Position numbers and translations under genes: made by a program. Shown here one piece after another: positions 1,119 to 28,338 of a stretch of 29,509 nucleotides of DNA. Location of the stretch: positions 1-29,509 of the IMG/VR virus record IMGVR_UViG_3300005909_000076, one strand, 5' to 3'. This DNA is from a virus. The notes under the pieces were generated by a model. It did no database searches and was not told the DNA's origin. It saw nothing but the letters and a program-made list of their open reading frames with translations. The first letter of the stretch is position 1, and every line of letters starts with the position of its first letter.

Positions 1119-1268
1119 ATGGGTAGAAAAAAAATGTTAAGTCCTAAAGCTAAGATTCTTTCGATTGCTTTAACAACAGAGCAGTATGATAAGGTAGAAG
1201 CAGAGTGTCCAAAGGATATGAAGATATCTGTTTATGGGAGATTAAAATTGTTAGGAGAAATAAAATGA
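1119..1268 (+). CDS. Ribbon-helix-helix-like small protein (49 aa)
   Basis: A 49-residue ORF below the usual length cut-off. The sequence KILSIALTTEQYDKVEAE followed by MKISVYGRLKLLGEI has the strand-helix-helix spacing of MetJ/Arc-type (RHH) DNA-binding proteins: an alternating hydrophobic strand, a first helix beginning T/S-x-E-Q-Y, and a second helix beginning S-V-x-x-R. The N-terminus is basic (MGRKK). It shares ATGA with the radical SAM gene downstream, which supports real translation. No good ribosome binding site precedes ATG 1119; a second in-frame ATG lies at 1134. If it is a repressor, the promoter-like sequence just upstream (1084-1112) would be the obvious operator. That regulatory role is inference. 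Confidence 0.6.
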   Translation: MGRKKMLSPKAKILSIALTTEQYDKVEAECPKDMKISVYGRLKLLGEIK

Positions 1269-2209
1269 AATATTGGTTGTATAGATTAAAATGGCATTTA
1301 GCAAAGTACATAACTTGGGAGTATCCATTGCATGTTGATTTTGAATTAAGTACGCATTGTAATTTATCCTGTAGCTTTTGCCCACACAGCGAACATATAC
1401 AGGACTTTAAAAAAGGCTTCATGGATTTTGATAGATACAAACAAATAATAGATGAGATAGCAGGTAAAGTACCCAGTATTAAATTCAATCTAAGAGGAGA
1501 ATCAACATTACATCCCGATTTCGATTTATTCCTTAAATATGCACATAAGAAATTTATAGATATAAGAATTAATACTAATGGACAGTATAGAAATAAGGCT
1601 GTGTCGTTGTGGATGGCTCAGTATTGTACTGACATAAGCTTTAGTGTAGATGCTTTTTATAAAGATACGTATAAAGAAAAACGTGGTGGTGATTTTCAAC
1701 TGCTCGAGAATAATATACTAGATACTATAAGAATGGTAGGTGGCTACCAACACAGGGCTAAGCTGACCTTATCATATGTATATACATCCAGTCATGAGTA
1801 TGTAGAAATCGCAAAGTTTCGTATGCTTTGGGCCGCTCGATATCATAAAGTAAAATTTAATATAAGAGCAGCAATGGATAGAGTAACCCTAAAGGAGCAA
1901 ATTACTAAAAAAGGTAAAATAAAAAAATTAGGAGATAAGGTTGCTGTAGGGAGAAAAGATTGTTTAATGCCGAGGAGAAGGCTTGTTGTTACTCATGATT
2001 TTAAAGTAGGATATTGCTGCTTACTTTGGCATAAACCAAGCTATCTACCGTTCAGTATTGATAGTAAAGAAGTAAAGCTATTAGATTATTGGAATCATCC
2101 GAGCTTATTGTGTATACGAGATAATCTCAAATTTCTTAGATTCGATGTATTGCCTAAAATGTGTAAAAATTGCGATAGTTCAGAATCTTACAAGTGGAGT
2201 AACTTATGA
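1265..2209 (+). CDS. Radical SAM/SPASM-domain enzyme
   Basis: A 314-residue protein from ATG 1265, chosen because AGGAG at 1253-1257 is ideally spaced and the ATG overlaps the previous stop. Residues 32-39 carry the radical SAM signature CNLSCSFC that binds the [4Fe-4S] cluster which cleaves S-adenosylmethionine. FNLRGESTLHPDF (about 74-86) corresponds to the GGEPLLHP region. The C-terminal part has SPASM-like cysteines: C233, C251/C252, then LLDYWNHPSL and CKNC (300-303), which would hold auxiliary clusters. SPASM proteins modify peptides or act as dehydratases/epimerases on sugars and other small molecules; the neighbours favour a sugar-related substrate, but this cannot be settled here. 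It overlaps the next gene by ATGA, indicating a coupled operon. Confidence 0.85.
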   Translation: MKYWLYRLKWHLAKYITWEYPLHVDFELSTHCNLSCSFCPHSEHIQDFKKGFMDFDRYKQIIDEIAGKVPSIKFNLRGESTLHPDFDLFLKYAHKKFIDIRINTNGQYRNKAVSLWMAQYCTDISFSVDAFYKDTYKEKRGGDFQLLENNILDTIRMVGGYQHRAKLTLSYVYTSSHEYVEIAKFRMLWAARYHKVKFNIRAAMDRVTLKEQITKKGKIKKLGDKVAVGRKDCLMPRRRLVVTHDFKVGYCCLLWHKPSYLPFSIDSKEVKLLDYWNHPSLLCIRDNLKFLRFDVLPKMCKNCDSSESYKWSNL

Positions 2210-3552
2210 TACACCCTAAAGCAATTATATTAATTCAATGCAGATACGACAGCAAAAGAGCACCTGGTAAAATACTGAGAGAATTAAAACCGGGTCTTTC
2301 ATGCTTGGAGTATTTAATTCAAAGACTTGGGAAAACATCCTATAATTGTATAATAGCTACTACGGATAGAGATGCAGATTCGCCTATTTTCGACGCGTAC
2401 TTACGTCTAAAAGGTAAATATAAGTACTTACTCGGATGCTTTCGTGGTGATGAAAAGAATATAGCTAGGAGGTTGTACGATGCTTCTAAAGGGTACGATT
2501 ACATTATAAGAGTTACAGGTGATGATTTTTTCGTTGATACAGCTATTCTAGATTCAATGGCGGTAGAGGCGGTGTTGGCAGATGCGTCTTATACTTATCC
2601 TGAAAATCTCATAAGAGGTTGCGACAGTGATGTATTTAAAAGAGATTCTCTTGTAAAAGCCTTAGGGGAATACGACATGGCTGATGTCGAGAGCATAGAA
2701 TTTCTATTTAAAAATACCGATACCTCAAAAGTATTCAAGGTTCCAGGCTCATACAAAAATCCAAGTATCAATTTAACACTGGATACGGAGGACGATTGGA
2801 AAGTAGTACAGTTGGTCTGGAAAAAACTATCTGTCATTAACTATTGCTTCAATACATGGGATATAGTAGAATTTATTACACGCAACTCATTTATAACAGA
2901 TATGAATAAAGTGCCCTTGGTGACTGTGTATACTGTTTTTAAGGATTACCCTATTAAGTGGCTTCAAAATGCTATTGCGAGTTTGCAAGAACAAACATTT
3001 ACTGATTACGAATTTATACTAATCGATTATGGTAGCAAGCAGATACACCAGTATTTAAAAGAAGTAAATAACGAAGAAAAAGTAAGAACCTTTTTTACCG
3101 ATGAGCTGAACTTCATAGACAGCATCAACCTAGCTATAAAGAAAGCGAGAGGTAAGTATATTCTTAGGTTGGATGCCGACGATATGTTAATGCCGGATGC
3201 TTTAGAGAAGATGGTTAACTACCTGACGGAGCACAATTTCTACAGCGCTGTTATCCCGAATTTCGACGCTTTAACAGATAAACTGCTCATACACAATGTA
3301 CCTGGTGATAAAGACAACATTATGTCTTGTGCTCTTATCGAGAAAAAAAAGTACAGTTTCGTTAAATTTAAAGAAACACAGTCTTTCAGAGATGGGACTA
3401 CTTTACTTAAAAGTTTCAAAGAATACGGATTTAAAACAGGATATCTAGCGGAGCCTTTGTTTATTTACAGAGTACACGACAGAAGTTTAACGCACGACCC
3501 CAGTCGCCGCGGGCTAATAAAAGAAACGGATGCCGCAATAAATGACAAATAA
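2206..3552 (+). CDS. Fusion: SpsF-type cytidylyltransferase + GT2 glycosyltransferase
   Basis: A 448-residue, two-domain protein. Residues 5-225 look like the SpsF/COG1861 cytidylyltransferase family (relatives of NeuA/KdsB): IILIQCRYDSKRAPGKIL matches the Q-R-x-x-S-x-R-x-P-G-K signature that grips CTP, RVTGDDFFVD (102-111) matches the metal-binding R-x-T-G-D segment, and NLTLDTEDDW (189-198) matches the LTVDTxED motif. Residues 236-448 are a GT2-like glycosyltransferase: VPLVTVYTVFKDY at its start, an acidic turn ILIDYGS, and RLDADD (321-326) as the DxD-type metal motif. One chain would thus activate a sugar acid or alditol as a CMP derivative and hold a transferase that may or may not use it. 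Start and stop overlap both neighbours (ATGA before, 11 bases after). Confidence 0.85.
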   Translation: MIHPKAIILIQCRYDSKRAPGKILRELKPGLSCLEYLIQRLGKTSYNCIIATTDRDADSPIFDAYLRLKGKYKYLLGCFRGDEKNIARRLYDASKGYDYIIRVTGDDFFVDTAILDSMAVEAVLADASYTYPENLIRGCDSDVFKRDSLVKALGEYDMADVESIEFLFKNTDTSKVFKVPGSYKNPSINLTLDTEDDWKVVQLVWKKLSVINYCFNTWDIVEFITRNSFITDMNKVPLVTVYTVFKDYPIKWLQNAIASLQEQTFTDYEFILIDYGSKQIHQYLKEVNNEEKVRTFFTDELNFIDSINLAIKKARGKYILRLDADDMLMPDALEKMVNYLTEHNFYSAVIPNFDALTDKLLIHNVPGDKDNIMSCALIEKKKYSFVKFKETQSFRDGTTLLKSFKEYGFKTGYLAEPLFIYRVHDRSLTHDPSRRGLIKETDAAINDK

Positions 3553-3928
3553 AATAATAGATATACTGATGGCGGATTTAGATTTAACAGGATTGCGCCT
3601 AAGCGCCATGACTAATGTAGAGATGCTGGAGCTGTTTAAACACGACTTCCTAGTTATAAATGACTATGTGCCCTCGAATCAATTTGATAAAACTCAGATA
3701 TTTCAGTACAGTAAATGTTTCATCGACGATTTTAAGAGAAGAGTATCCAAAGACTCACTGGGTCAAATCGTTGACTTTGCACAAATGATACAACAGTTAA
3801 TGAAAAACGACGCTACTATAATAGACAGCTACTATACCAGAACTTTATTAAGGCTATACAGTTATGCAGTGGCCCAGCTTCGTAAAAGTGAAATCCCAGA
3901 TGCGATGCTGACAAAGGATTTTCTATAA
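3542..3928 (+). CDS. Conserved-looking small protein, unknown function
   Basis: A 128-residue protein starting 11 bases inside the previous gene. It is predicted mainly helical with no cysteine cluster, no membrane segment and no recognisable catalytic motif. Features visible are a Leu/Met-rich N-terminal helix, an Asp/Tyr-rich middle (INDYVPSNQFDKTQIF) and a Tyr-rich helix near the C-terminus (SYYTRTLLRLYSYAVAQL). Tight packing between the cytidylyltransferase fusion and the DAHP-synthase-like gene suggests an accessory role in the cassette. I do not recognise it. Confidence 0.6.
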   Translation: MTNKIIDILMADLDLTGLRLSAMTNVEMLELFKHDFLVINDYVPSNQFDKTQIFQYSKCFIDDFKRRVSKDSLGQIVDFAQMIQQLMKNDATIIDSYYTRTLLRLYSYAVAQLRKSEIPDAMLTKDFL

Positions 3929-3929
3929 A

Positions 3930-4121
3930 ATGGCATTGCTTAAAATATTATCAAGCGGTGAGGAAAATAATACACTTACCGCGGCAATGCTGACTGAGAA
4001 TTTTTTTGTATCCCTCGGCGAGTTAATGAGATGCTCACATGACTCAGACATGACGAAGGAAATAGAAGAAAACGACAATATAGTATTTATGAAAGTGGAG
4101 GGTAATCAATGGAAATTATAG
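3930..4121 (+). CDS. Small acidic protein (63 aa), unknown function
   Basis: This 63-residue ORF starts two bases after the previous stop and runs 13 bases into the next gene. There is no obvious ribosome binding site, so translation would depend on coupling with the upstream gene. The protein is acidic (TKEIEENDNIVF) with a hydrophobic N-terminal helix that is too short and polar to be a clear membrane anchor. No family is recognised. The continuous coding through a packed operon is the main support. Confidence 0.5.
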   Translation: MALLKILSSGEENNTLTAAMLTENFFVSLGELMRCSHDSDMTKEIEENDNIVFMKVEGNQWKL

Positions 4122-4876
4122 CAGGTCCGTGTAGTTTTGAATCGTATAAACAAACAAAAGATACAGTAAAATTTTTAACAGAACTAGGTATAAAATACAT
4201 AAGGGGAGGGGCTCTAAAGTACAGGTCTATGCCGAAAGATTATCAAGGTACGCCAGCTGTATATAGGTGGATTGCAGATTTAAAAAAGGAATATTACTTT
4301 GAATTTGTTAATGAAATGTATGATTCTGAATCCGATTATAGACAAGATGTTGATATGATACAGGTAGGTAGCAGAAATCAAATGAATACTCATCTTTTAA
4401 AAGGATTAAACGGAATTGATAAACCGATACTATTAAAACGACATTATGCATCTAGTATAAGTTCTTTTCTTGACCACGCTTCTTATTTAGATGAGTCAGA
4501 AGTAATATTGTGTCTCAGAGGTATAATGGGGTTATGGCCCCAAGAGCAGCGCTTTATGCCTGACGTTACAGACATCGCCAGACTAAGAGAATTAATGCAC
4601 CAAAGAGGGCTTTTTAATAAGCGCGTAGATGTTTTAAAAGTAAAAGATATTAAATTAAAACATAAAATATGCTACGACGTAAGTCATTCTGCGTGCGATA
4701 GTAAATACGTTAAGAATTTAATCAAATGCGCTAAAGTTTATGAACCTGATTACCTAATGATTGAAGTACACAATCGTCCGAAGAAAGCGCTATCAGATGC
4801 TCAGCAACAAATAAATTTCGCGACCTTTGAGTCTTGGGTTAACGAAGGTCTTTTCGAAACAAATAAGAAGGAGTAA
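4109..4876 (+). CDS. DAHP synthase-like enzyme (type I-beta fold, catalytic domain only)
   Basis: A 255-residue TIM-barrel enzyme of the DAHP/KDO8P synthase superfamily, which condenses PEP with an aldose phosphate to make a 3-deoxy-2-ulosonic acid phosphate. AGPCSFES sits at 5-12, GGALKYRSMPKDYQG at 33-47, VGSRN at 86-90, LLKR at 108-111, YDVSHS at 189-194, IEVH at 218-221 and ALSDAQQQ at 227-234. The four metal ligands of the family (Cys8, His193, Glu219, Asp230) and the PEP-binding Lys/Arg residues (K37, R39, K110, R111) are present, so it looks active. The GGAxKxR..P..(Y/F)QG motif is DAHP-synthase type and not the KANRSS motif of KDO8P synthase. It lacks a regulatory ACT or ferredoxin-like domain. 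A GGAGGG site precedes the ATG. No other aromatic-pathway gene is near; the context is sugar modification. Confidence 0.82.
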   Translation: MEIIAGPCSFESYKQTKDTVKFLTELGIKYIRGGALKYRSMPKDYQGTPAVYRWIADLKKEYYFEFVNEMYDSESDYRQDVDMIQVGSRNQMNTHLLKGLNGIDKPILLKRHYASSISSFLDHASYLDESEVILCLRGIMGLWPQEQRFMPDVTDIARLRELMHQRGLFNKRVDVLKVKDIKLKHKICYDVSHSACDSKYVKNLIKCAKVYEPDYLMIEVHNRPKKALSDAQQQINFATFESWVNEGLFETNKKE

Positions 4877-4878
4877 AT

Positions 4879-6180
4879 ATGTTAAACAAATTAGAGCCAA
4901 TTAATAAAACGATAGAAGTTACTATGATGTACGATAAAAGCAGAGTAGAAATAGAATGTCCCTTATGTCACAAAGAGGAGTGGGAGTTCCTAGACCATAT
5001 CAGAAAACCAATAGTAGATAATCATCTATGTATTTGCAGAAATTGCGGGTTCATTAGTTATAATCCACAGCTGAAAGATATTCAAGAGTGGTATAACAAA
5101 GAGGTACGCTCCCAAGACCTGGCTTTTCTTAATACTAAATTTAGTAAACTTGAGATGCATAAGAAAATGATAGGTGCTTATATGGCTGATAATATAGATA
5201 AAGGCAATACCTATAATAACGCATTAGATTTCGGATGCAGTGATGGTTATCTATTGAAGTATCTACGTGACGAAAATTTAATAAAAACAGCAAAAGGAAT
5301 AGAACTTAACCCGGGACATGCCAACTGGGCAAGGCATATTTATGATTTAGATATCTCATCCAGTGATGATACCTCTGTGTATAAGGACGGTAGCTTCGAT
5401 TTAATCGTGTGTTACCATGTACTTGAGCATATCCAACAGCCAGATTTACTTCTCAAGGAATTCAACAGAATTCTGTCGGATACGGGGATTCTATACATAG
5501 GATTGCCTACTATAGATAGACTAGATTACACTACGCGCTATGATTTATTCAAAGATGAGCATATTAACATGTTTTCAGACAACACCCTTCGATATTTTTT
5601 AGCAGTAAATGGCTTTGAATCTGTATTTGAAAATAATTATTTATATGGCACCGCTATTATATTTAAGAAAACAAAAACAAAAGCACCTAAAATGTCCTGC
5701 TACGATGAAAATATTGAGTTACTTGACCGCATAAACGCCTGTTATACGTTAAGAGATAGAGCAGATAAGTGTACAGCTACAGGTGATGTCGGAGGTACAA
5801 AAAAGAATTTAGTCGAAGCATTGAAGAATTACAACAACTTTCCAGAATTGATTATTAAGTATTCCAGCTTAAATGACGCTATCGATGAACAAGACATTCT
5901 TGAAGAGTATATTAAATTCAAACCTCACTTCTGGGAGCTCCACACAGCTCTCGGGCTCAGCTTATTTAGAGAAGGTAATTTTGATAAAGCGGAAGAATCA
6001 CTCTTAAAAGCTACCGAGCTAAAGGGGAAAAATGCTATGTGCCTGATTCACCTGGGTCAAATAAAGTATTATCAAAAAGATTTTATTGGAGCTATCGAGT
6101 ATCTACGGGAATGCTGGAAAATGGAACCTTACAATCAAAGTGCTTTTGAATTGCTTGCTACTATATTGGCTAAAATGTAA
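4879..6180 (+). CDS. Zinc-finger class I SAM methyltransferase with C-terminal TPR repeats
   Basis: A 433-residue protein with a GGAG site before its ATG. Residues 27-56 hold two CxxC pairs (CPLC and CRNC), the putative zinc-binding N-terminal domain seen in sugar C-methyltransferases. Residues 116-124 (LDFGCSDGY) are motif I of the SAM-binding Rossmann fold, and FDLIVCYHVLEHI (173-185) is the usual motif II/post-II region; LPTIDRLDYTT and DEHINMFS follow as in the C-methyltransferase family. From about residue 345 the chain turns into helical repeats (HFWELHTALGLSLFREGNF, AMCLIHLGQIKYYQKDF) typical of TPRs, a protein-binding module. A methyl-sugar role agrees with the cassette; the TPR tail may dock it on other enzymes or on a virion protein. 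Confidence 0.82.
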   Translation: MLNKLEPINKTIEVTMMYDKSRVEIECPLCHKEEWEFLDHIRKPIVDNHLCICRNCGFISYNPQLKDIQEWYNKEVRSQDLAFLNTKFSKLEMHKKMIGAYMADNIDKGNTYNNALDFGCSDGYLLKYLRDENLIKTAKGIELNPGHANWARHIYDLDISSSDDTSVYKDGSFDLIVCYHVLEHIQQPDLLLKEFNRILSDTGILYIGLPTIDRLDYTTRYDLFKDEHINMFSDNTLRYFLAVNGFESVFENNYLYGTAIIFKKTKTKAPKMSCYDENIELLDRINACYTLRDRADKCTATGDVGGTKKNLVEALKNYNNFPELIIKYSSLNDAIDEQDILEEYIKFKPHFWELHTALGLSLFREGNFDKAEESLLKATELKGKNAMCLIHLGQIKYYQKDFIGAIEYLRECWKMEPYNQSAFELLATILAKM

Positions 6181-6181
6181 T

Positions 6182-7573
6182 ATGGCTGATTTCACTTATA
6201 TTACGGAGCCATATAAGCATCAGGCTGAGGCGCTTGAGCTCTACAAAGACAGAGATTCTTTAGCCTTATTCTGGGAAATGGGAACAGGTAAGACCAAAGC
6301 TACTATAGACCTTATGCGATATAAGTCATACGGTCTCGGACACCCTTGCAGAGCCCTGGTAGTGGCCCCTAATATTGCGCTACAAAACTGGGTTAATGAA
6401 ATTGAGATGCACAGCAAACTAAAGGGAATAGTATTGCAAGGCACTAAAGCTAAGCGACTCCGCAACTTGGCAAATGAAGACTTCTCTATTAAAGTAATAA
6501 ATTACGAGGGACTAAAAACTATACAAAAAGAGTTATCCGCGACGCCATTCGACTGCCTAGTTATAGATGAGAGCCAACGCGTTAAGAATAGCAAGGCTAT
6601 TAGAACTAGGATATTGACTCATATGTCGAAGAAGATAGATATCAGGTACTTATTGTCTGGAACACCGGTCCTTAACAATTCGTTAGATATATTTAGCCAA
6701 TACTTAATACTTGATAGAGGTGAAATCTTTGGGTCGAGTTTTTATGCGTTCCGGAATAAATACTTCGAAGATAAGAACGCAGGAAGAGCTGGTACAAGAT
6801 ATTACTTTCCTAACTTTGCACCGAAACCAGATACTACTAAATTATTAAATAAACTTATAATGCAGAAGGCGGATAGGCGTAAAAAAGAGGAATGCCTAGA
6901 TTTACCACCAAAGGTTTATCAAACATTACAAATCCCTATGGAGCCTGAGCAGCAGAAGGCGTATAATGAGATGAAGAAAGAACTGATTACTTTCTTCCAA
7001 GAACACCCAGTAACTGCGTCTACGGCTGTAGTCAAACTAGTGCGCTTGAACCAGATTGCATCAGGGTACGTAGGTTCCGAAAATGCAGGCGAGATAGCTT
7101 TTAAACGTAATCCTAAGATAGAAGCCTTAAAAGAAATACTGGCAGATATAGCACAAGACCATAAAGTTATCATCTGGGCGATATTTAGAAACAATATTAA
7201 AGCCTTAGAAAAGGCGCTGCAAGAATATAATCCATCAGTTATATACGGAGACACAAAGGATAAAGTTGCTGAGCAAGATAAATTTAGGAAAGACCCAACG
7301 TGCAGAATATGTATAGCTAATCCTCAATCTGCGGGCCTTGCAATTAATCTCGTAGAAGCTGATTATACTATTTATTTCAGCCATAGCTTTAACCTAGAGC
7401 ACAGATTACAGAGTGAAGATAGAAATCACAGAGGAGGCTCAGAAATCCACGAAAAAATAACTTACATCGATTTAGTGAGCGCAGGCTCAGTTGACGAGGT
7501 TATTTTAAAAGCATTGAAAAGTAAAGAGAACCTCGCAAAAACGATAATTGAAAGACTTCCTGAGATTCTGTGA
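6182..7573 (+). CDS. SNF2-family DNA helicase/translocase
   Basis: A 463-residue superfamily 2 ATPase. The start at 6182 is chosen because it lies one base after the previous stop and begins MADFTYITEPYKHQ, the usual Q-motif-like entry; a longer frame upstream lies inside the methyltransferase gene. Visible motifs are MGTGKT (Walker A, 33-38), VAPN (61-64), DESQ (129-132, a DEAH variant), SGTP (159-162, motif III) and QSEDRNHRGGS (410-420, motif VI). Phages commonly carry such single-chain SNF2 helicases in their replication modules. The protein is minimal, without extra DNA-binding domains. It has no strong ribosome binding site of its own and is likely translated by coupling. Confidence 0.9.
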   Translation: MADFTYITEPYKHQAEALELYKDRDSLALFWEMGTGKTKATIDLMRYKSYGLGHPCRALVVAPNIALQNWVNEIEMHSKLKGIVLQGTKAKRLRNLANEDFSIKVINYEGLKTIQKELSATPFDCLVIDESQRVKNSKAIRTRILTHMSKKIDIRYLLSGTPVLNNSLDIFSQYLILDRGEIFGSSFYAFRNKYFEDKNAGRAGTRYYFPNFAPKPDTTKLLNKLIMQKADRRKKEECLDLPPKVYQTLQIPMEPEQQKAYNEMKKELITFFQEHPVTASTAVVKLVRLNQIASGYVGSENAGEIAFKRNPKIEALKEILADIAQDHKVIIWAIFRNNIKALEKALQEYNPSVIYGDTKDKVAEQDKFRKDPTCRICIANPQSAGLAINLVEADYTIYFSHSFNLEHRLQSEDRNHRGGSEIHEKITYIDLVSAGSVDEVILKALKSKENLAKTIIERLPEIL

Positions 7574-9148: not shown

Positions 9149-9151
9149 TTT

Positions 9152-9250
9152 TTACCTCCTTCTTCCTTGGCTAGCGCCCCGTATAGGCTTAGAGTCACCT
9201 TTTTTTCCGACTCGTGGCGTTCCACCACAACTTCCTTTTTTAGCTGTCAT
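9152..9250 (-). CDS. Small Gly/Lys-rich basic phage protein (32 aa)
   Basis: A 32-residue ORF with AAAGGAG just before its ATG at 9250; its TAA lies inside the ribosome binding site of the next gene, a typical phage packing arrangement. The protein is strongly basic and Gly-rich (KKGSCGGTPRVGKKGDSK, ending in GRRR). Tiny 'GGTP(K/R)' proteins of this kind recur in phage genomes near lysis or structural genes, with unknown function. The plus-strand frame overlapping this spot is judged a shadow. Confidence 0.6.
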   Translation of the reverse strand: MTAKKGSCGGTPRVGKKGDSKPIRGASQGRRR

Positions 9251-10456: not shown

Positions 10457-10849
10457 TTAATTTCCAAAAAACAAGATATATACTCTTGCTGCGCCATAAG
10501 CTCCTCCATTACTAGTAACCGATGTTCTAAATGAAGATGTCGTTTTATATGCCGCGTTCCTATATGGATTTATATTAATATCACTATTTGCCGCGTCAGT
10601 TGCTAAATCATAAACTCCACCACCTGCAATTAGATATTCAGCGTCAGTCATATCTGTATCAAATGAAAAAGAAAAGCTCCCGGTAGCATTGTCAATAAGT
10701 GAACTACAGTTGAAATCATCAATTATTTCAGCTGTGGCAGTTGCTTTAAAATTAATCCAAGCTCTACAAGCTCCATCAACTAAATCACCAGTGTCTATTG
10801 TTTTTGTTCCGGCTACGTTAGATATTGCTTCAGCTTTTACTCCACCCAT
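10457..10849 (-). CDS. Tail/appendage protein with C-x-AW-x-F beta domain (130 aa)
   Basis: A 130-residue protein sharing a domain with the gene at 11288-11671: GACRAWINFKATATAEIIDDFNCSSLIDN then a run ending with TDMTDAEY, which in the paralog reads SSQCRAWASF...DEFNVSSITDD...SNMNDADY. This 'A-W-x-F...F-N-x-S-S-x-x-D-x-x-G-x-(Y/F)' beta-sandwich occurs in phage fibres and host-contact proteins. The N-terminus (VKAEAISNVAGTKTID) looks like a short attachment segment. The start overlaps the previous stop as TAATG, with GAGGAG upstream. The receptor is unknown. Confidence 0.65.
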   Translation of the reverse strand: MGGVKAEAISNVAGTKTIDTGDLVDGACRAWINFKATATAEIIDDFNCSSLIDNATGSFSFSFDTDMTDAEYLIAGGGVYDLATDAANSDININPYRNAAYKTTSSFRTSVTSNGGAYGAARVYILFFGN

Positions 10850-11274
10850 TACATCTCCTCAATAATTGCTTTCAATTCATGTACATCCGCAGCACCATCT
10901 ATATCTGTTTGAAACAAATCGTATTTAGCTCTTACTAAAACTCTTCCAGCTTCTACAGCTACTTCATCAGTACCTGGTAGTTTCTTCATTATTTGCTCAT
11001 CTAACGGTTCAAACTCCTTAGCTCTTGCAACTCGTCTTAAAACATGAGTATGTTCCTTTGCTTTATCTAAATCAATTCCTACCGTTTTACCGTCTTTCTT
11101 CCAAGCGTTTCTGAAGATTCTATCATTTGGTATTATTGATGTATCAACTATCTCAAACGCTTTCCCTAAAGGAACGTCTTTCTTTGCTATTTCTTCTATA
11201 CTTAACTTACAGTTAGGTGATGGTATTAATACACTTACCCCACCTTCATCATTTTCAAATATTACTCTTTGCAT
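10849..11274 (-). CDS. Phage protein of tail-fibre region (fibre accessory/assembly candidate)
   Basis: The start is set at 11274 and not at the in-frame ATG at 11298 because AAGGAGG (11280-11286) lies immediately upstream of 11274; this gives 141 residues. The motif IEEIAKKDVPLGKAFEIVD followed by FRNAWKKDGK and DLDKAKEHTHVLRRVAR matches a small phage family found next to fibre genes, whose members combine a strand-rich N-terminus with a Lys/Arg-rich helical tail. I infer a role in fibre folding or assembly from position. It separates two paralogous appendage genes, so it may serve both. Confidence 0.6.
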   Translation of the reverse strand: MQRVIFENDEGGVSVLIPSPNCKLSIEEIAKKDVPLGKAFEIVDTSIIPNDRIFRNAWKKDGKTVGIDLDKAKEHTHVLRRVARAKEFEPLDEQIMKKLPGTDEVAVEAGRVLVRAKYDLFQTDIDGAADVHELKAIIEEM

Positions 11275-11287
11275 TTTTTCCTCCTTT

Positions 11288-11671
11288 TTAACTTCCAAAT
11301 ACTGCTACGTGTGCTTCAAGGCAATCAGCAGGAATGGTATTGTAACTACCTGCAAACAATGCAAATGCTGATGTAGTCTGTGCTACGTTCCATCTAAGCA
11401 TTATATTATTTAAGTATGAACTAGTGGGTTTTGAAGTACCTACAACACAATAATCTGCATCGTTCATGTTACTTGTAAAATTTACTGTATATAATCCATT
11501 ACCATCGTCTGTAATACTTGATACGTTAAACTCATCATCAATAGCAGGGGTTCCTGCCGTTATTGTAAAACTGGCCCAGGCTCTGCATTGCGAAGACCCC
11601 AAGTTAGAAACAGATATATCACTACCGCTATCGGCTGCATTATTTAAAGTGTTTACATTTAATTGACTCAT
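11288..11671 (-). CDS. Tail/appendage protein with C-x-AW-x-F beta domain (127 aa)
   Basis: A 127-residue paralog of the protein at 10457-10849. The N-terminal segment (LNVNTLNNAADSGSDISVSNLG) differs, whereas the core carries the same AWASF, FNVSSITDDGNGLYTVNF and NDADYCVVG pattern. AAGGAG lies before the start. Strand-rich composition, low charge and no signal peptide fit a virion protein. The different ends on a common core suggest modular exchange of the host-contact part. Confidence 0.65.
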   Translation of the reverse strand: MSQLNVNTLNNAADSGSDISVSNLGSSQCRAWASFTITAGTPAIDDEFNVSSITDDGNGLYTVNFTSNMNDADYCVVGTSKPTSSYLNNIMLRWNVAQTTSAFALFAGSYNTIPADCLEAHVAVFGS

Positions 11672-18821: not shown

Positions 18822-19281
18822 TGTTTAATTCCTTATATATTTGTTTGAATGTTTCTATATCATTCTGCAGCAATACTATTTGTAAGATTCTGAGTATCTG
18901 TTTGTAAGTAATTGTCTTTTTAAGATACTCCATAAGTACTACTATGTCCTCACCTGGTCTTAGGAAAAGGTAAGTAAGGGCGGGGTAGAAGCTCTCCTGT
19001 TTTATCATCTCATCCAGCGTAACGGCATCTTTATTTAAAAGTATAAGCTGCATCATCTTACTTATTTGCCAATGTCGCAAAGGCCTTAGCGTATATACGC
19101 GCTCTCCAGCTATCGCTATTAGCGGCTTTGTATATTTCTCTGCAGTAGTCAGTTCTTCGGCTTTAAAGTTTTCTTTTACAATTTTATCTGTTCTTTTTAT
19201 AAGATACTTAAGTCTGAGTATAAACCAGATAACAAATATTCCTACTCCTATGAAAATGCTCCCTAAAATATTTAATATCAT
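18814..19281 (-). CDS. Second tail-chaperone-like protein with N-terminal TM helix (155 aa)
   Basis: A 155-residue paralog of the protein at 19460-20056. Shared elements are YTLRPLRHWQ (63-72; paralog YLLKPLKYRQ), EYLKKTITYKQILRIL (118-133; paralog EYLRKHATLDQITRVL) and LQNDI (138-142; paralog IQNDI). Both have an N-terminal hydrophobic helix (here residues 1-22) and a basic stretch after it. Its ATG overlaps the stop of the frameshift extension (ATGA), and its end overlaps the GTG start of the tape measure. Position and fold argue for a tail assembly chaperone. A membrane anchor is not expected for soluble chaperones of the lambda G type, so its role is open. Confidence 0.6.
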   Translation of the reverse strand: MILNILGSIFIGVGIFVIWFILRLKYLIKRTDKIVKENFKAEELTTAEKYTKPLIAIAGERVYTLRPLRHWQISKMMQLILLNKDAVTLDEMIKQESFYPALTYLFLRPGEDIVVLMEYLKKTITYKQILRILQIVLLQNDIETFKQIYKELNSV

Positions 19282-19451
19282 CTTAAATTACCTGCTCCCT
19301 TTGTTATTTTGTCATTTGCTTCTTGTTCCCGAGTATATCTATTTTCTATTAACTGGAGGTACAAATTAACCTGCAGTACTGTCATTTCTCTTATCTCGGC
19401 CAGTGTCCAGCTGTATTCTTTTCCAAATATATCAAGCCATGTATAAAACAT
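19278..19451 (-). CDS. Frameshift extension (T-like part) of the tail assembly chaperone
   Basis: A 57-codon frame missed by size cut-offs (from ATG 19451: MFYTWLDIFGKEYSWTLAEI and onward to a TGA at 19278). The pattern 'E-Y-x-W-T-L-x-E-I-x-x-M-T-x-x-Q' resembles the T part of siphophage G/GT tail chaperones, a short region rich in W and Y that begins with a strand and a helix. The open frame continues upstream in the -1 frame to the A10 run in the preceding gene, giving NSSVQKIEEH before this Met. ATG 19451 has no ribosome binding site, so expression is expected as the GT fusion (19278-20056, 259 residues) and not as a free protein. Confidence 0.7.
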   Translation of the reverse strand: MFYTWLDIFGKEYSWTLAEIREMTVLQVNLYLQLIENRYTREQEANDKITKGAGNLR

Positions 19452-19459
19452 ATGCTCTT

Positions 19460-20056
19460 CTATTTTTTGGACTGAGCTATTTTTTTTTTACCCCCTAATA
19501 ATCCGAATGCTTTTAACGCTCTATCGATGTCGTTTTGAATCTGTATTACTTCTAATACTCTCGTTATTTGGTCTAAGGTGGCGTGTTTCCTAAGGTACTC
19601 GTATTCCTTATGAGTGCCTTCATACTGCTTTACCTCTGTTTCCTCGGCGGAGTGATTACTAAAGTATAGAATCAGCGCAATAGCTTTGAAATACTCATCC
19701 TCTAGAACCTCCATTGAGTCTCCGATGGCAGAAGACATGTCGTCGAACTGCATTCCATTTTCGGATAGCTTCTGGAGCATCTTTGAAAATAAAATACATA
19801 ATCTTGTGTACTGTCTATATTTGAGCGGTTTTAATAAATAGAATCTATCCCCTACGAACACTTCGCGGGGAGTTTCATCAATAATAGACAGTTTATCATC
19901 TTCTTTGAAACCTTGTAGGTAGTCTCTTATTTGTAAATCTCTTTTTTTAATCTTACGTTTCCGCAACTTAAAAAAGGCTCTACGTACCGCGCTTCCTCCG
20001 AAAAAAACTGAAAAGCAAAACAGTACAACTAATAAACTACCTATAAGTATCAACAT
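19460..20056 (-). CDS. Tail assembly chaperone, G-like, with N-terminal TM helix (198 aa)
   Basis: A 198-residue protein between the tail tube and tape measure genes, the place of gpG/gpGT-type tail assembly chaperones, which guide tube polymerisation on the tape measure. Residues 1-21 form a hydrophobic helix followed by a very basic patch (LRKRKIKKRD). The core has YLLKPLKYRQ (73-82), EYLRKHATLDQITRVL (153-168) and IQNDI (173-177), repeated in the paralog downstream. It ends with GGKKKIAQSKK, coded by an A10 run that is the predicted slippery site. Its start, two bases after the tube gene stop, has no strong ribosome binding site, so translation is probably coupled. Confidence 0.7.
   Translation of the reverse strand: MLILIGSLLVVLFCFSVFFGGSAVRRAFFKLRKRKIKKRDLQIRDYLQGFKEDDKLSIIDETPREVFVGDRFYLLKPLKYRQYTRLCILFSKMLQKLSENGMQFDDMSSAIGDSMEVLEDEYFKAIALILYFSNHSAEETEVKQYEGTHKEYEYLRKHATLDQITRVLEVIQIQNDIDRALKAFGLLGGKKKIAQSKK
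19480..19489 (-). promoter_or_regulatory. Predicted -1 ribosomal frameshift site (A10 slippery run)
   Basis: On the coding strand the zero frame reads GGT AAA AAA AAA ATA and stops ten codons after GGT. Slipping back one base on the A run gives AAT AGC TCA and then an open frame that reaches TGA at 19278-19280 through the T-like region. The heptamer A-AAA-AAA is an efficient slippery sequence in bacteria, and position near the end of a tail chaperone gene is a hallmark of long-tailed phages. Transcriptional slippage on A10 would give the same products. Confidence 0.75.
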
Positions 20057-21039: not shown

Positions 21040-21277
21040 TGTCATCTACCTCCTTTTTTTCTACTTTCTTTGCTGCTTTCTTTTCTTTTACCACCTTAAA
21101 ATGGCCCTGCCCTACTAAATCGTGGGCTTCCTTATCAGTAACTTCCATGACTTGCTCCTCCTCAGGGAGAGGCGCCATAGTACTGTAATTTAATAATGGA
21201 AAAGTAACACCCATTGGGCGATTCTTTAATGTTGGTATTTCCAACCCGTACTTCTTTATAAACTGTACTTTAACCAT
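21020..21277 (-). CDS. Small Lys/Glu-rich protein before the tube gene (85 aa)
   Basis: An 85-residue protein with GGAGGT before its start at 21277. The N-terminal 60 residues contain LEIPTLKNRPMGVTFPLLNY and VTDKEAHDLVGQGHFKVV, reading like a small folded domain; the C-terminal 25 residues are a charged tail (KKAAKKVEKKEVDDNGE) that may be disordered. It overlaps the tube gene by 20 bases. Small head-tail joining or capsid-related accessory proteins are found here in some phages. I cannot assign a function. Confidence 0.6.
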   Translation of the reverse strand: MVKVQFIKKYGLEIPTLKNRPMGVTFPLLNYSTMAPLPEEEQVMEVTDKEAHDLVGQGHFKVVKEKKAAKKVEKKEVDDNGEDRV

Positions 21278-22154
21278 TTGTCATTACCTCCTTTCTTATT
21301 CTTGCTTGCTTCTGTATCTTTAGGATTCCAGACCCTGTTATATTAACAGTATCTATTCCTTTTTTATGCATCTGAGCCACAAACCCTAGTAACCATTTAG
21401 CGCTGAACTGCATGTTGTGGCTACATTGCACTATATTACCCGCTAAATCAATCATAGTGTAGTGGTTGTATAAACTCTTCTTTTTAATTTTTAAATTAAA
21501 ATCTATAGGCTCTTCGCTCTGCTCCCCATAATAATCCCCCAATAGTGGAAAACTATAATTATAAGCAGCTAAATAAATTGCTCTATATCCTAAGATTAAG
21601 GCAGTCAACGCGTAAGCAGCATTTCCTACGTTGCTTCCAGCCGGAATTAAGTAAGTAGCTTTGTCTTTAAAATATTTACCAAAAATACGATGCGTCCTAA
21701 TACTGTCTTTGTTTAAGTAAAAATATACTTTACCTTTACTCTTATTCCAATGCTCTGCCCATTTATAATTAGCAGTCGAAGCACTGAGTAAGGTAATGCG
21801 AGCACAAACTTCAGGAGCTATATCCCCATATTCTTCAAAACTGACTTGTGCATCACTTATCACACAGTACTTGGGAATTATTCCCATTACAAGACATGTC
21901 TTTAATGCTTTATCTATACAGATAACATCACACTCATAATGAAGTTTGCTACTCTTTATATCTCTGATATTCTCTTTCAACGATGTTCCGAAACTGAATA
22001 TGATAGCTTTCTTGTTTTGACCTATTCCTGCTATATCATCTGCTTTCTCTGCAAAGGCAGCATTCTTTGAAGCATTTACATGCCATAGGTCGTGCCACCT
22101 CTCATAGGCGTGGTTCGATTGGGATTCTATTTCTGACTTACTTAGTAATTGCAT
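21270..22154 (-). CDS. DUF115/Maf-like protein (MptE-like fold) within the tail gene cluster
   Basis: A 294-residue protein with AGAGGAG before its start. KKAIIFSFGTSLKENI (48-63) followed by DVICIDKALKTCLVMGIIP (76-94) and KYCVISDAQ (95-103) is the signature of the DUF115/MAF_flag10 family: a nucleotide-binding strand-loop 'a-x-I-x-G-x-G-x-S-L', 'D-x-A-l...L-x-x-x-G-I-x-P-(D/K)-x-x-x-x-x-D'. Here the loop reads FGTSL in place of GxGPSL. A later G-S-N-V-G-N-A-A-Y-A-L-T-A-L segment and GYRAIYLAAYN (about 175-200) complete the fold. Family members include Maf proteins that add CMP-nonulosonic acids to flagellin and the MptE pyrophosphokinases. Sitting between neck and tube genes, it could glycosylate a virion protein. 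It overlaps the next gene by eight bases. Confidence 0.7.
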   Translation of the reverse strand: MQLLSKSEIESQSNHAYERWHDLWHVNASKNAAFAEKADDIAGIGQNKKAIIFSFGTSLKENIRDIKSSKLHYECDVICIDKALKTCLVMGIIPKYCVISDAQVSFEEYGDIAPEVCARITLLSASTANYKWAEHWNKSKGKVYFYLNKDSIRTHRIFGKYFKDKATYLIPAGSNVGNAAYALTALILGYRAIYLAAYNYSFPLLGDYYGEQSEEPIDFNLKIKKKSLYNHYTMIDLAGNIVQCSHNMQFSAKWLLGFVAQMHKKGIDTVNITGSGILKIQKQARIRKEVMTNG

Positions 22155-22174: not shown

Positions 22175-22675
22175 TTAAATGCTTTTCAACAAACCTTTAA
22201 CTTCCAAATTAATATTAGCTGCCATCTGAAATACGGATGATTCTCCTTTAAACTTGGCAACAAAATTTGTACTCTTAGGTAGTATATGTTCTACCTTGAA
22301 GCCGCCGCTTCTATACTTCCACAGCACTCTATTATACCTTAATATAGCTTCTATATTACTTACTAACTTCCATAAATTAACTTCAGCATCTGATAAACTG
22401 TGGTACAGCGCTTCTATTTTCATATCTAAGAATACTGTTCTATTATAATTAGTCCCTGTATTTGCACCAGGATACTCTCGCCTGTCAATTAGGCGTACAT
22501 TTACTATGGGGTAATCTGGAAGCATTTCGGGATGTATATCGAGGTCAACTCGCCTGACGTGCTGAACTCTCTTACCCATTCCATCTGATAAATCATAAGG
22601 AGCAGTTACGCTGTTGGCAGTTGTTAACTCCGTAACAAAAGTATCTACAATGGCGTTATAATCACATATATACAT
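22175..22675 (-). CDS. Tail-completion/terminator-like protein, copy 2 (166 aa)
   Basis: A 166-residue protein with GGAGGT six bases before its ATG. The N-terminal stretch DYNAIVDTFVTEL, APYDLSDGMGKRVQHVRRVD and IHPEMLPDYPIVNVRLIDRRE parallels the neighbouring gene at 22675-23223 almost element for element, indicating an old duplication. Position after the gpG-like gene and before the tube gene, and size, agree with tail terminator or head-tail connector proteins (the gpU/gp17 class). Overlap of stop and ATG with the neighbour supports joint translation. The exact role of each copy is unknown. Confidence 0.6.
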   Translation of the reverse strand: MYICDYNAIVDTFVTELTTANSVTAPYDLSDGMGKRVQHVRRVDLDIHPEMLPDYPIVNVRLIDRREYPGANTGTNYNRTVFLDMKIEALYHSLSDAEVNLWKLVSNIEAILRYNRVLWKYRSGGFKVEHILPKSTNFVAKFKGESSVFQMAANINLEVKGLLKSI

Positions 22676-27838: not shown

Positions 27839-27910
27839 TTAGGAAGAGTTGTCCTTATTGGAATAATCTACGTGTGGGATAAGTAAAACTGTATATTCTC
27901 CCACGGCCAT
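27839..27910 (-). CDS. Tiny ORF with strong RBS (23 aa)
   Basis: A 23-codon frame (AVGEYTVLLIPHVDYSNKDN) with AAAGGAGG placed ideally before ATG 27910. It ends 18 bases before the -35 box of the promoter at 27792-27821. It could be a small real protein, a leader peptide or a decayed gene. Support comes only from the ribosome binding site and the otherwise empty gap. Confidence 0.35.
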   Translation of the reverse strand: MAVGEYTVLLIPHVDYSNKDNSS

Positions 27911-27922
27911 AATTATCCTCCT

Positions 27923-28123
27923 TTATTCGTATATTACTGTTACGCAAGCGTCTCGTGCTGTTATGTATAATCTTAATCCGTTACTAAACGGCAATCCATG
28001 AAAGTCTATTGCTGTTGGTAGCTCAAATAGTTTACCTGATGTGAATGTCCATATAGTCGGTGTGATTGCCGTTGTGCTATCGCTTAATGTTATTACTGCT
28101 AACTTTACGCAGTTACTTACGAT
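27923..28123 (-). CDS. Decoration-like small protein lacking a canonical start (about 66 aa)
   Basis: A frame of 66-67 codons that looks coding: VKLAVITLSDSTTAITPTIW, TSGKLFELPTAIDFHGLPFS, then GLRLYITARDACVTVIYE. The ending 'G-L-x-x-x-x-x-x-x-x-x-x-V-T-V-x-Y-E' is common in small phage head proteins. There is no ATG, GTG or TTG near its beginning; AAAAGGAG lies just before ATA (28126) and ATC (28123), overlapping the stop of the previous gene. It may use a rare start, restart after the upstream stop, or be made by -1 frameshifting from the upstream gene. The 5' limit is therefore uncertain. Confidence 0.55.
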   Translation of the reverse strand: MVSNCVKLAVITLSDSTTAITPTIWTFTSGKLFELPTAIDFHGLPFSNGLRLYITARDACVTVIYE

Positions 28124-28338
28124 TATGCTCCTTTTGACTTTTCTTTCTTTTCTTCCTTTTCTTCCTTTTCCGGCCCAGCTACTGCCTCTTGCTGTTGCTG
28201 TTGCTGTTGTCGTTGTTGTTTAATAGCTTCTATTACAACTCTGTTATATTCATTTCTTTCAGCCGTAAGAGACTCGATTTGCAAATTTATATCATATACC
28301 CGTATCTTTAAATCATTCACTGTTACTTCTGTACTCAT
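28123..28338 (-). CDS. Coiled-coil protein with polyglutamine run (71 aa)
   Basis: A 71-residue protein with GAGGAG before its ATG. Residues 5-40 are a coiled coil (LKIRVYDINLQIESLTAERN), followed by QQRQQQQQQQ and a Lys/Glu-rich tail (KEEKEEKKEKSKGA). The coil resembles that at the end of the neighbouring 77-residue protein (DGQISSLGAQKTAAQVKL). Such short coils can trimerise fibre or decoration proteins. The Gln run is coded by a CAA/CAG triplet repeat, so slippage would change length without losing frame. Confidence 0.55.
   Translation of the reverse strand: MSTEVTVNDLKIRVYDINLQIESLTAERNEYNRVVIEAIKQQRQQQQQQQEAVAGPEKEEKEEKKEKSKGA

Follow-up and report, generated by a model that had tools for sequence, protein, structure and literature searches.

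A probable small gene with a Shine-Dalgarno-like motif and no canonical start codon in the virion operon of a tailed phage

How might a reading frame be translated that resembles a gene, carries a Shine-Dalgarno (SD)-like motif at its 5' end and possesses none of the usual start codons? The question is raised by a 66-codon frame, here called X, located upstream of the protease gene on the minus strand of a virus. The window, that is, the whole stretch of DNA analyzed, is the entire virus record of 29,509 bases, and its minus strand encodes a major head protein (phrog_1005, E 1.7e-73), a head maturation protease (phrog_976, E 6.7e-34) and a minor tail protein (phrog_290, E 2e-30), matches that identify the virus as a tailed phage. 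X follows an ORF with a glutamine run (the polyQ ORF), and the features of the locus are as follows.

28123-28338, minus strand: upstream polyQ ORF of 71 amino acids, with a Gln run and a Lys/Glu-rich tail; ATG at 28338, TAA at 28125-28123
28126-28219, minus strand: overlap open in two frames, that of polyQ and the -1 frame (that of X); A_AAG tetramers at 28167, 28158, 28149 and 28140
28128-28135, minus strand: AAAAGGAG, SD-like motif where the polyQ ORF ends in Lys-Gly-Ala
28121-28123, minus strand: ATC, candidate start codon at a distance of 4 nt from GGAG (aligned spacing 3), having its A in common with the polyQ stop (TAATC)
28118-28120, minus strand: GTA, candidate start codon at a distance of 7 nt from GGAG (aligned spacing 6), at the position that ATG takes in the polyQ and 23-amino-acid ORFs
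27923-28123, minus strand: frame X, 66 codons beginning with ATC, then TAA; it probably encodes a small phage protein and lacks a canonical start
27839-27910, minus strand: 23-codon ORF (MAVGEYTVLLIPHVDYSNKDNSS) in the frame of X, 12 nt after the X stop, with its own ATG after AAAGGAGGATAATT

Coding potential of frame X

On the minus strand, the codons of X run from ATC 28123 to GAA 27926, followed by the stop TAA at 27925-27923, and the translation reads IVSNCVKLAV...VTVIYE. An earlier note on this DNA had described a 66-codon frame ending in VTVIYE, in the -1 frame relative to the polyglutamine protein, with the motif preceding ATA and ATC where the upstream TAA falls and with no ATG, GTG or TTG near the 5' end. 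All of this was borne out: the frame is open from ATC 28123 to 27923, lies at -1 relative to the polyQ ORF (28338-28123), and is preceded by AAAAGGAG at 28135-28128 and by ATA 28126. Scanning the frame from its previous in-frame stop at 28222 down to 27923, we found no workable position for ATG, GTG or TTG; the sole such codon is TTG 27994, 43 codons in, which was rejected as the main start of X because only 23 codons would be left. An antisense gene at X was likewise rejected, there being no convincing plus-strand ORF and the reverse frames of X scoring between -0.04 and -0.46 in the codon score used below.

In first-order random sequence matched to the local composition, the probability of a stop-free run is 0.0085 for 66 codons and 0.00085 for 98 codons. 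The record is dense in genes, and when 66-codon windows were drawn from its two strands, 13.8% were open, a figure that includes real genes. X has a codon score (log-ratio) of 0.121 per codon. The comparison values are 0.203 +/- 0.099 (s.d.) for 866 in-frame windows taken from 23 longer genes, with 22% of these windows below X, and -0.086 +/- 0.142 (s.d.) for 127 open out-of-frame windows, with 6.3% at or above X. The codon usage of X is gene-like, which is suggestive and not decisive. The gap separating the polyQ ORF from the next larger gene measures 349 nt, of which X fills 201. Of the operon's 28 junctions 24 are shorter than 60 nt, and the three long gaps besides this one measure 72, 178 and 239 nt. 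The single-sequence structure model of X is poor (mean pLDDT 49.6). The earlier impression of a real small phage protein can thus be kept as a suggestion drawn from the open run and the gene-like codons, which fall short of proof, and we think it likely that X is coding or was so until recently.

Relatives of the locus and the possibility of a base error

We sought relatives of X in several libraries. Among the viral contigs (viral_contigs) only a near-identical contig was recovered, and there was no match in genome_contigs, in phages (tblastn at E 1 and 10) or in plasmids (tblastn at E 10); PHROGs and Pfam returned 0 families, and the PDB sequences one chain at E 1.1. A diverged relative of X was not found in viral_contigs, genome_contigs, phages or plasmids, where the contig scans depend on a short perfect match in peptide or DNA and therefore reach close relatives. 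With the polyQ ORF, the protease, a 77-amino-acid ORF or a 131-amino-acid ORF as bait, viral_contigs yielded only the same second contig. The major head protein, which had no match in genome_contigs, found 8 loci in viral_contigs: the second contig, one more near-identical contig and 6 loci at 25-36% identity, and against these 6 the tblastn search with X gave E 0.37 or worse. Since no homologue turned up in the libraries searched, X is not confirmed as a protein. In one distant relative whose head protein is 30% identical (L010:51-698), an ORF with a Gln run is followed by a small ORF; this pair lies some way upstream of a protease-like gene, with other ORFs between, and has no meaningful tblastn similarity to X.

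The one other contig with the locus, IMGVR_UViG_3300025669_000277, differs from the window at 7 positions over 10,074 nt, two of them in the polyQ ORF and none in X. A 30-base junction is identical in both, including the same non-canonical start bases. This bears on the trivial explanation put forward in the earlier note, a single-base sequencing error. Both assemblies are IMG/VR records, so an error might be common to them; yet contigs that differ at 7 of 10,074 positions are not copies of each other, and no base of the junction or of X differs between them. With the same bases in a second contig, we consider a shared base error very unlikely. A third contig, L008, with 99.8% identity across 6,211 nt, begins inside the head protein gene and stops short of X.

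The same comparison leaves two contigs without a difference in X, and hence no divergence for a test of selection. Zero variable sites would also be consistent with X being no gene at all, just a chance open frame between the polyQ ORF and the next gene, as would the lack of homologues (in viral_contigs beyond the near-identical contig, genome_contigs, phages, plasmids, PHROGs, Pfam and PDB), the missing canonical start and the 6.3% of the 127 open out-of-frame windows that score as high. Set against this are the open-run probability of 0.0085 in composition-matched random sequence, a codon usage within the range of genes and an SD-like motif at the 5' end, which together make a chance frame improbable in our view.

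It is also conceivable that a canonical start codon of X was removed by mutation in this lineage, leaving the frame as a recent, silent relic. An intact and well-placed SD-like motif and a frame free of stops agree with such a loss, and the near-identical other contig may merely share it. However, with the frame wholly open and gene-like, the loss would need to be recent, and no copy with a canonical codon was found in viral_contigs, where a DNA pattern with four start-region bases left open hit only the known contig. We rate this start loss as rather unlikely. Neither loss by mutation nor a start at GTA 28120, which has the usual spacing from the motif, had been among the options of the earlier note.

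Candidate start codons and a proposed coupling to the upstream stop

On the minus strand, AAAAGGAG is followed by C, ATA 28126, ATC 28123 and GTA 28120, so that the aligned spacings to the motif are 0 for ATA, 3 for ATC and 6 for GTA. For comparison, a list of 39 genes hand-picked from the ORF lists starts with ATG in 35 cases, GTG in 3 and TTG in 1, the TTG (11298) being doubtful. GGAGG, GAGG or GGAG lies within 20 nt of the start in 28 of the 39, at aligned spacings of 3 to 13 and most commonly 7; four of these 28 show the spacing of 6 that GTA has in X, and one the spacing of 3 that ATC has. Aligned on the motif, the layout is GAGGAGATATAAC-ATG for the polyQ ORF, AAAGGAGGATAATT-ATG for the 23-amino-acid ORF and AAAGGAGCATAATC-GTA for X, where GTA and ATG differ in two bases. 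The 23-codon ORF at 27839-27910 has a strong SD-like motif, AAAGGAGG.

On sense strands we counted 15 copies of AAAGGAG, of which 8 stand before an assigned start (counted at 3-14 nt, with the starts 11275 and 9251 entered one base off and both still in range), 6 have no start, and one is that of X. As evidence for a start, the copy before X is of moderate weight; a Lys-Gly-Ala end readily yields AAAGGAG. Two further observations concern start regions elsewhere in the window. For 10849-11298 (minus strand) the TTG listed as the start, 11298, is probably not the true one, an ATG near 11274 following AAAAAGGAGGAAAA, and at 9149-9250 (minus strand) a 32-amino-acid ORF (MTAKKGSCGG...), below the length of the ORF list, follows GTAAAGGAGATAAAAA in the 239-nt gap.

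If ATC is the start, stop and start overlap as TAATC, which resembles the TAATG overlaps at 22675 and 10849 (2 of the 28 operon junctions). An SD-like motif at a usable distance, combined with a TAATC like these TAATG junctions, is best accommodated by the rare start and stop-restart of the earlier note. We therefore tentatively favor, at somewhat less than an even chance, X as a small gene of the virion operon that is weakly started at a non-canonical AUC or GUA and coupled to termination of the polyQ ORF. Ribosomes finishing the polyQ ORF would stop at UAA, where AAAAGGAG, just 5' of the stop, may hold them; they would restart at AUC on the last base of the stop (UAAUC), or three bases further on at GUA. 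The initiator tRNA would decode the non-canonical codon, giving a product of 65-66 residues, and initiation factor 3 (IF3) would keep initiation at X low and X scarce relative to the polyQ protein. Translation of X, the choice of start codon, the coupling and the role of IF3 are what we infer from this arrangement of bases.

As to the codon, we lean to AUC over GUA. AUC is favored on efficiency, because infC starts with ATC in Streptomyces and a GUA start has one demonstrated case, in a mutated recJ, which its authors called the only one to their knowledge (PMC6200909); GUA is not absurd, as GTC is the natural start of sigR. Both infC and sigR are described as repressed by IF3 (PMC5472188), and for Staphylococcus aureus AUU and AUA starts are given at about 10% of AUG in poor medium, with extended SD motifs at the non-canonical starts (PMC13009471). 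The closeness of ATC to the motif speaks against the coupled start, as do the very poor quality of GTA as a start codon, the extended SD motifs of the S. aureus cases and a codon-switch score that prefers an earlier change of frame, at 28218. Nor need coupling rescue a bad codon: IF3 is also active during re-initiation, and the re-initiation at non-AUG codons described in PMC2268962 was obtained with mutant initiator tRNAs. In its fullest form the proposal would have translation of a phage virion-operon gene begin naturally at AUC or GUA by restarting from an overlapping UAA; the phage would in this way set a low ratio of X to polyQ protein and make X dependent on host IF3. We regard this form as quite unlikely.

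The coupled start has counterparts in described systems. The IF3-controlled starts (infC with ATT, ATC or AUA; sigR with GTC; S. aureus cvfC1 with AUU and ccpN with AUA) have, like X, an SD-like motif and no canonical start, and in these genes as in X the product is plausibly kept scarce (PMC5472188, PMC13009471). In the accounts given there, the evidence for sigR and the S. aureus genes came from codon replacement, reporters or ribosome profiling, and the S. aureus set with non-canonical starts is conserved, whereas X is known by its sequence from one phage population. Termination-reinitiation at TGATG or ATGA (PMC6728339) resembles X in that the stop has a base in common with the start (for X, the candidate start) and that the upstream gene ends with an SD-like motif; the overlaps described there restart at AUG, while X would restart at AUC. 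If X is made, it would bring IF3-type non-canonical starts into a phage virion operon and join them to stop-restart coupling; if it is not, it would be a simple lost start or a chance frame. Gene finders, according to PMC5472188, depend on ATG, GTG and TTG, and would thus overlook small phage proteins of this kind.

The -1 overlap and other observations in the window

The third option of the earlier note was a -1 slip. In the form considered here, a frameshift by some ribosomes in the second half of the polyQ ORF would give a fusion of helix, linker and domain; a single gene split by an indel can be considered along with it. The -1 frame is open from 28219, and four A_AAG tetramers are in phase in the overlap. 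AGGA precedes two of them by 13 nt, and GAGG a third by 17 nt; A_AAA also occurs at 28134. C-terminal domains added by frameshifting are reported for phages, among them the lambda gpG-gpGT and T3 coat protein -1 frameshifts (PMC5009743), where, as here, the downstream -1 frame is open across the end of the upstream gene. The codon-sum optimum for a single switch of frame is at 28218 (28.24, vs 21.53 at the polyQ stop). This gain comes from ACA and GCA codons read in the CAA/CAG repeat; over the Lys/Glu tract that follows, the polyQ frame is ahead of the X frame (9.46 vs 4.36). Because the repeat is low in complexity we give the score little weight, and it is on its account that the fusion keeps a place among the alternatives.

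Unlike the lambda and T3 sites, the overlap has neither a slippery heptamer (X_XXZ_ZZN is absent from 28219 to 28126) nor a stable structure after it: folding of 28190-28040 and of 28135-28005 gave ordinary values (z 0.16 and -0.59). Z_ZZN tetramers are stated to require a strong stimulator (PMC4066793); here A_AAG has AGGA 13 nt upstream and no stable structure. A_AAG with an SD-like motif is, moreover, expected in an A/G-rich tract; across 26 genes, 8 of 53 A_AAG sites have such a motif 6-17 nt upstream, 3 of the 8 in the polyQ overlap. The probable tail-chaperone site of the same phage is an A-run heptamer, unlike the overlap at X. The signals for a slip are thus weak, tetramers with neither heptamer nor stable structure, with the codon-switch score leaning towards it, and we judge the fusion or split gene to be unlikely. 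Transcriptional slippage at the polyQ end was rejected, the A runs there being at most 4.

The probable -1 frameshift lies in a tail-chaperone-like pair at 19281-20056 (minus strand). ORF 20056-19460 ends in a run of ten A, with A_AAA_AAA at 19483 and GGGGG 7 nt upstream; the -1 frame is then open for 69 codons to 19281 and also holds ATG codons of its own. From its place before the long tail gene, ORF 20056-19460 may be the tail-assembly chaperone; it matched no Pfam family. An MptE-like gene (21270-22154) sits amid the head and tail genes, and on the plus strand, at 1205-7573, the phage carries genes for a radical SAM protein, a cytidylyltransferase plus glycosyl transferase, a DAHP synthetase I family protein, a methyltransferase with TPR and an SNF2-type helicase.
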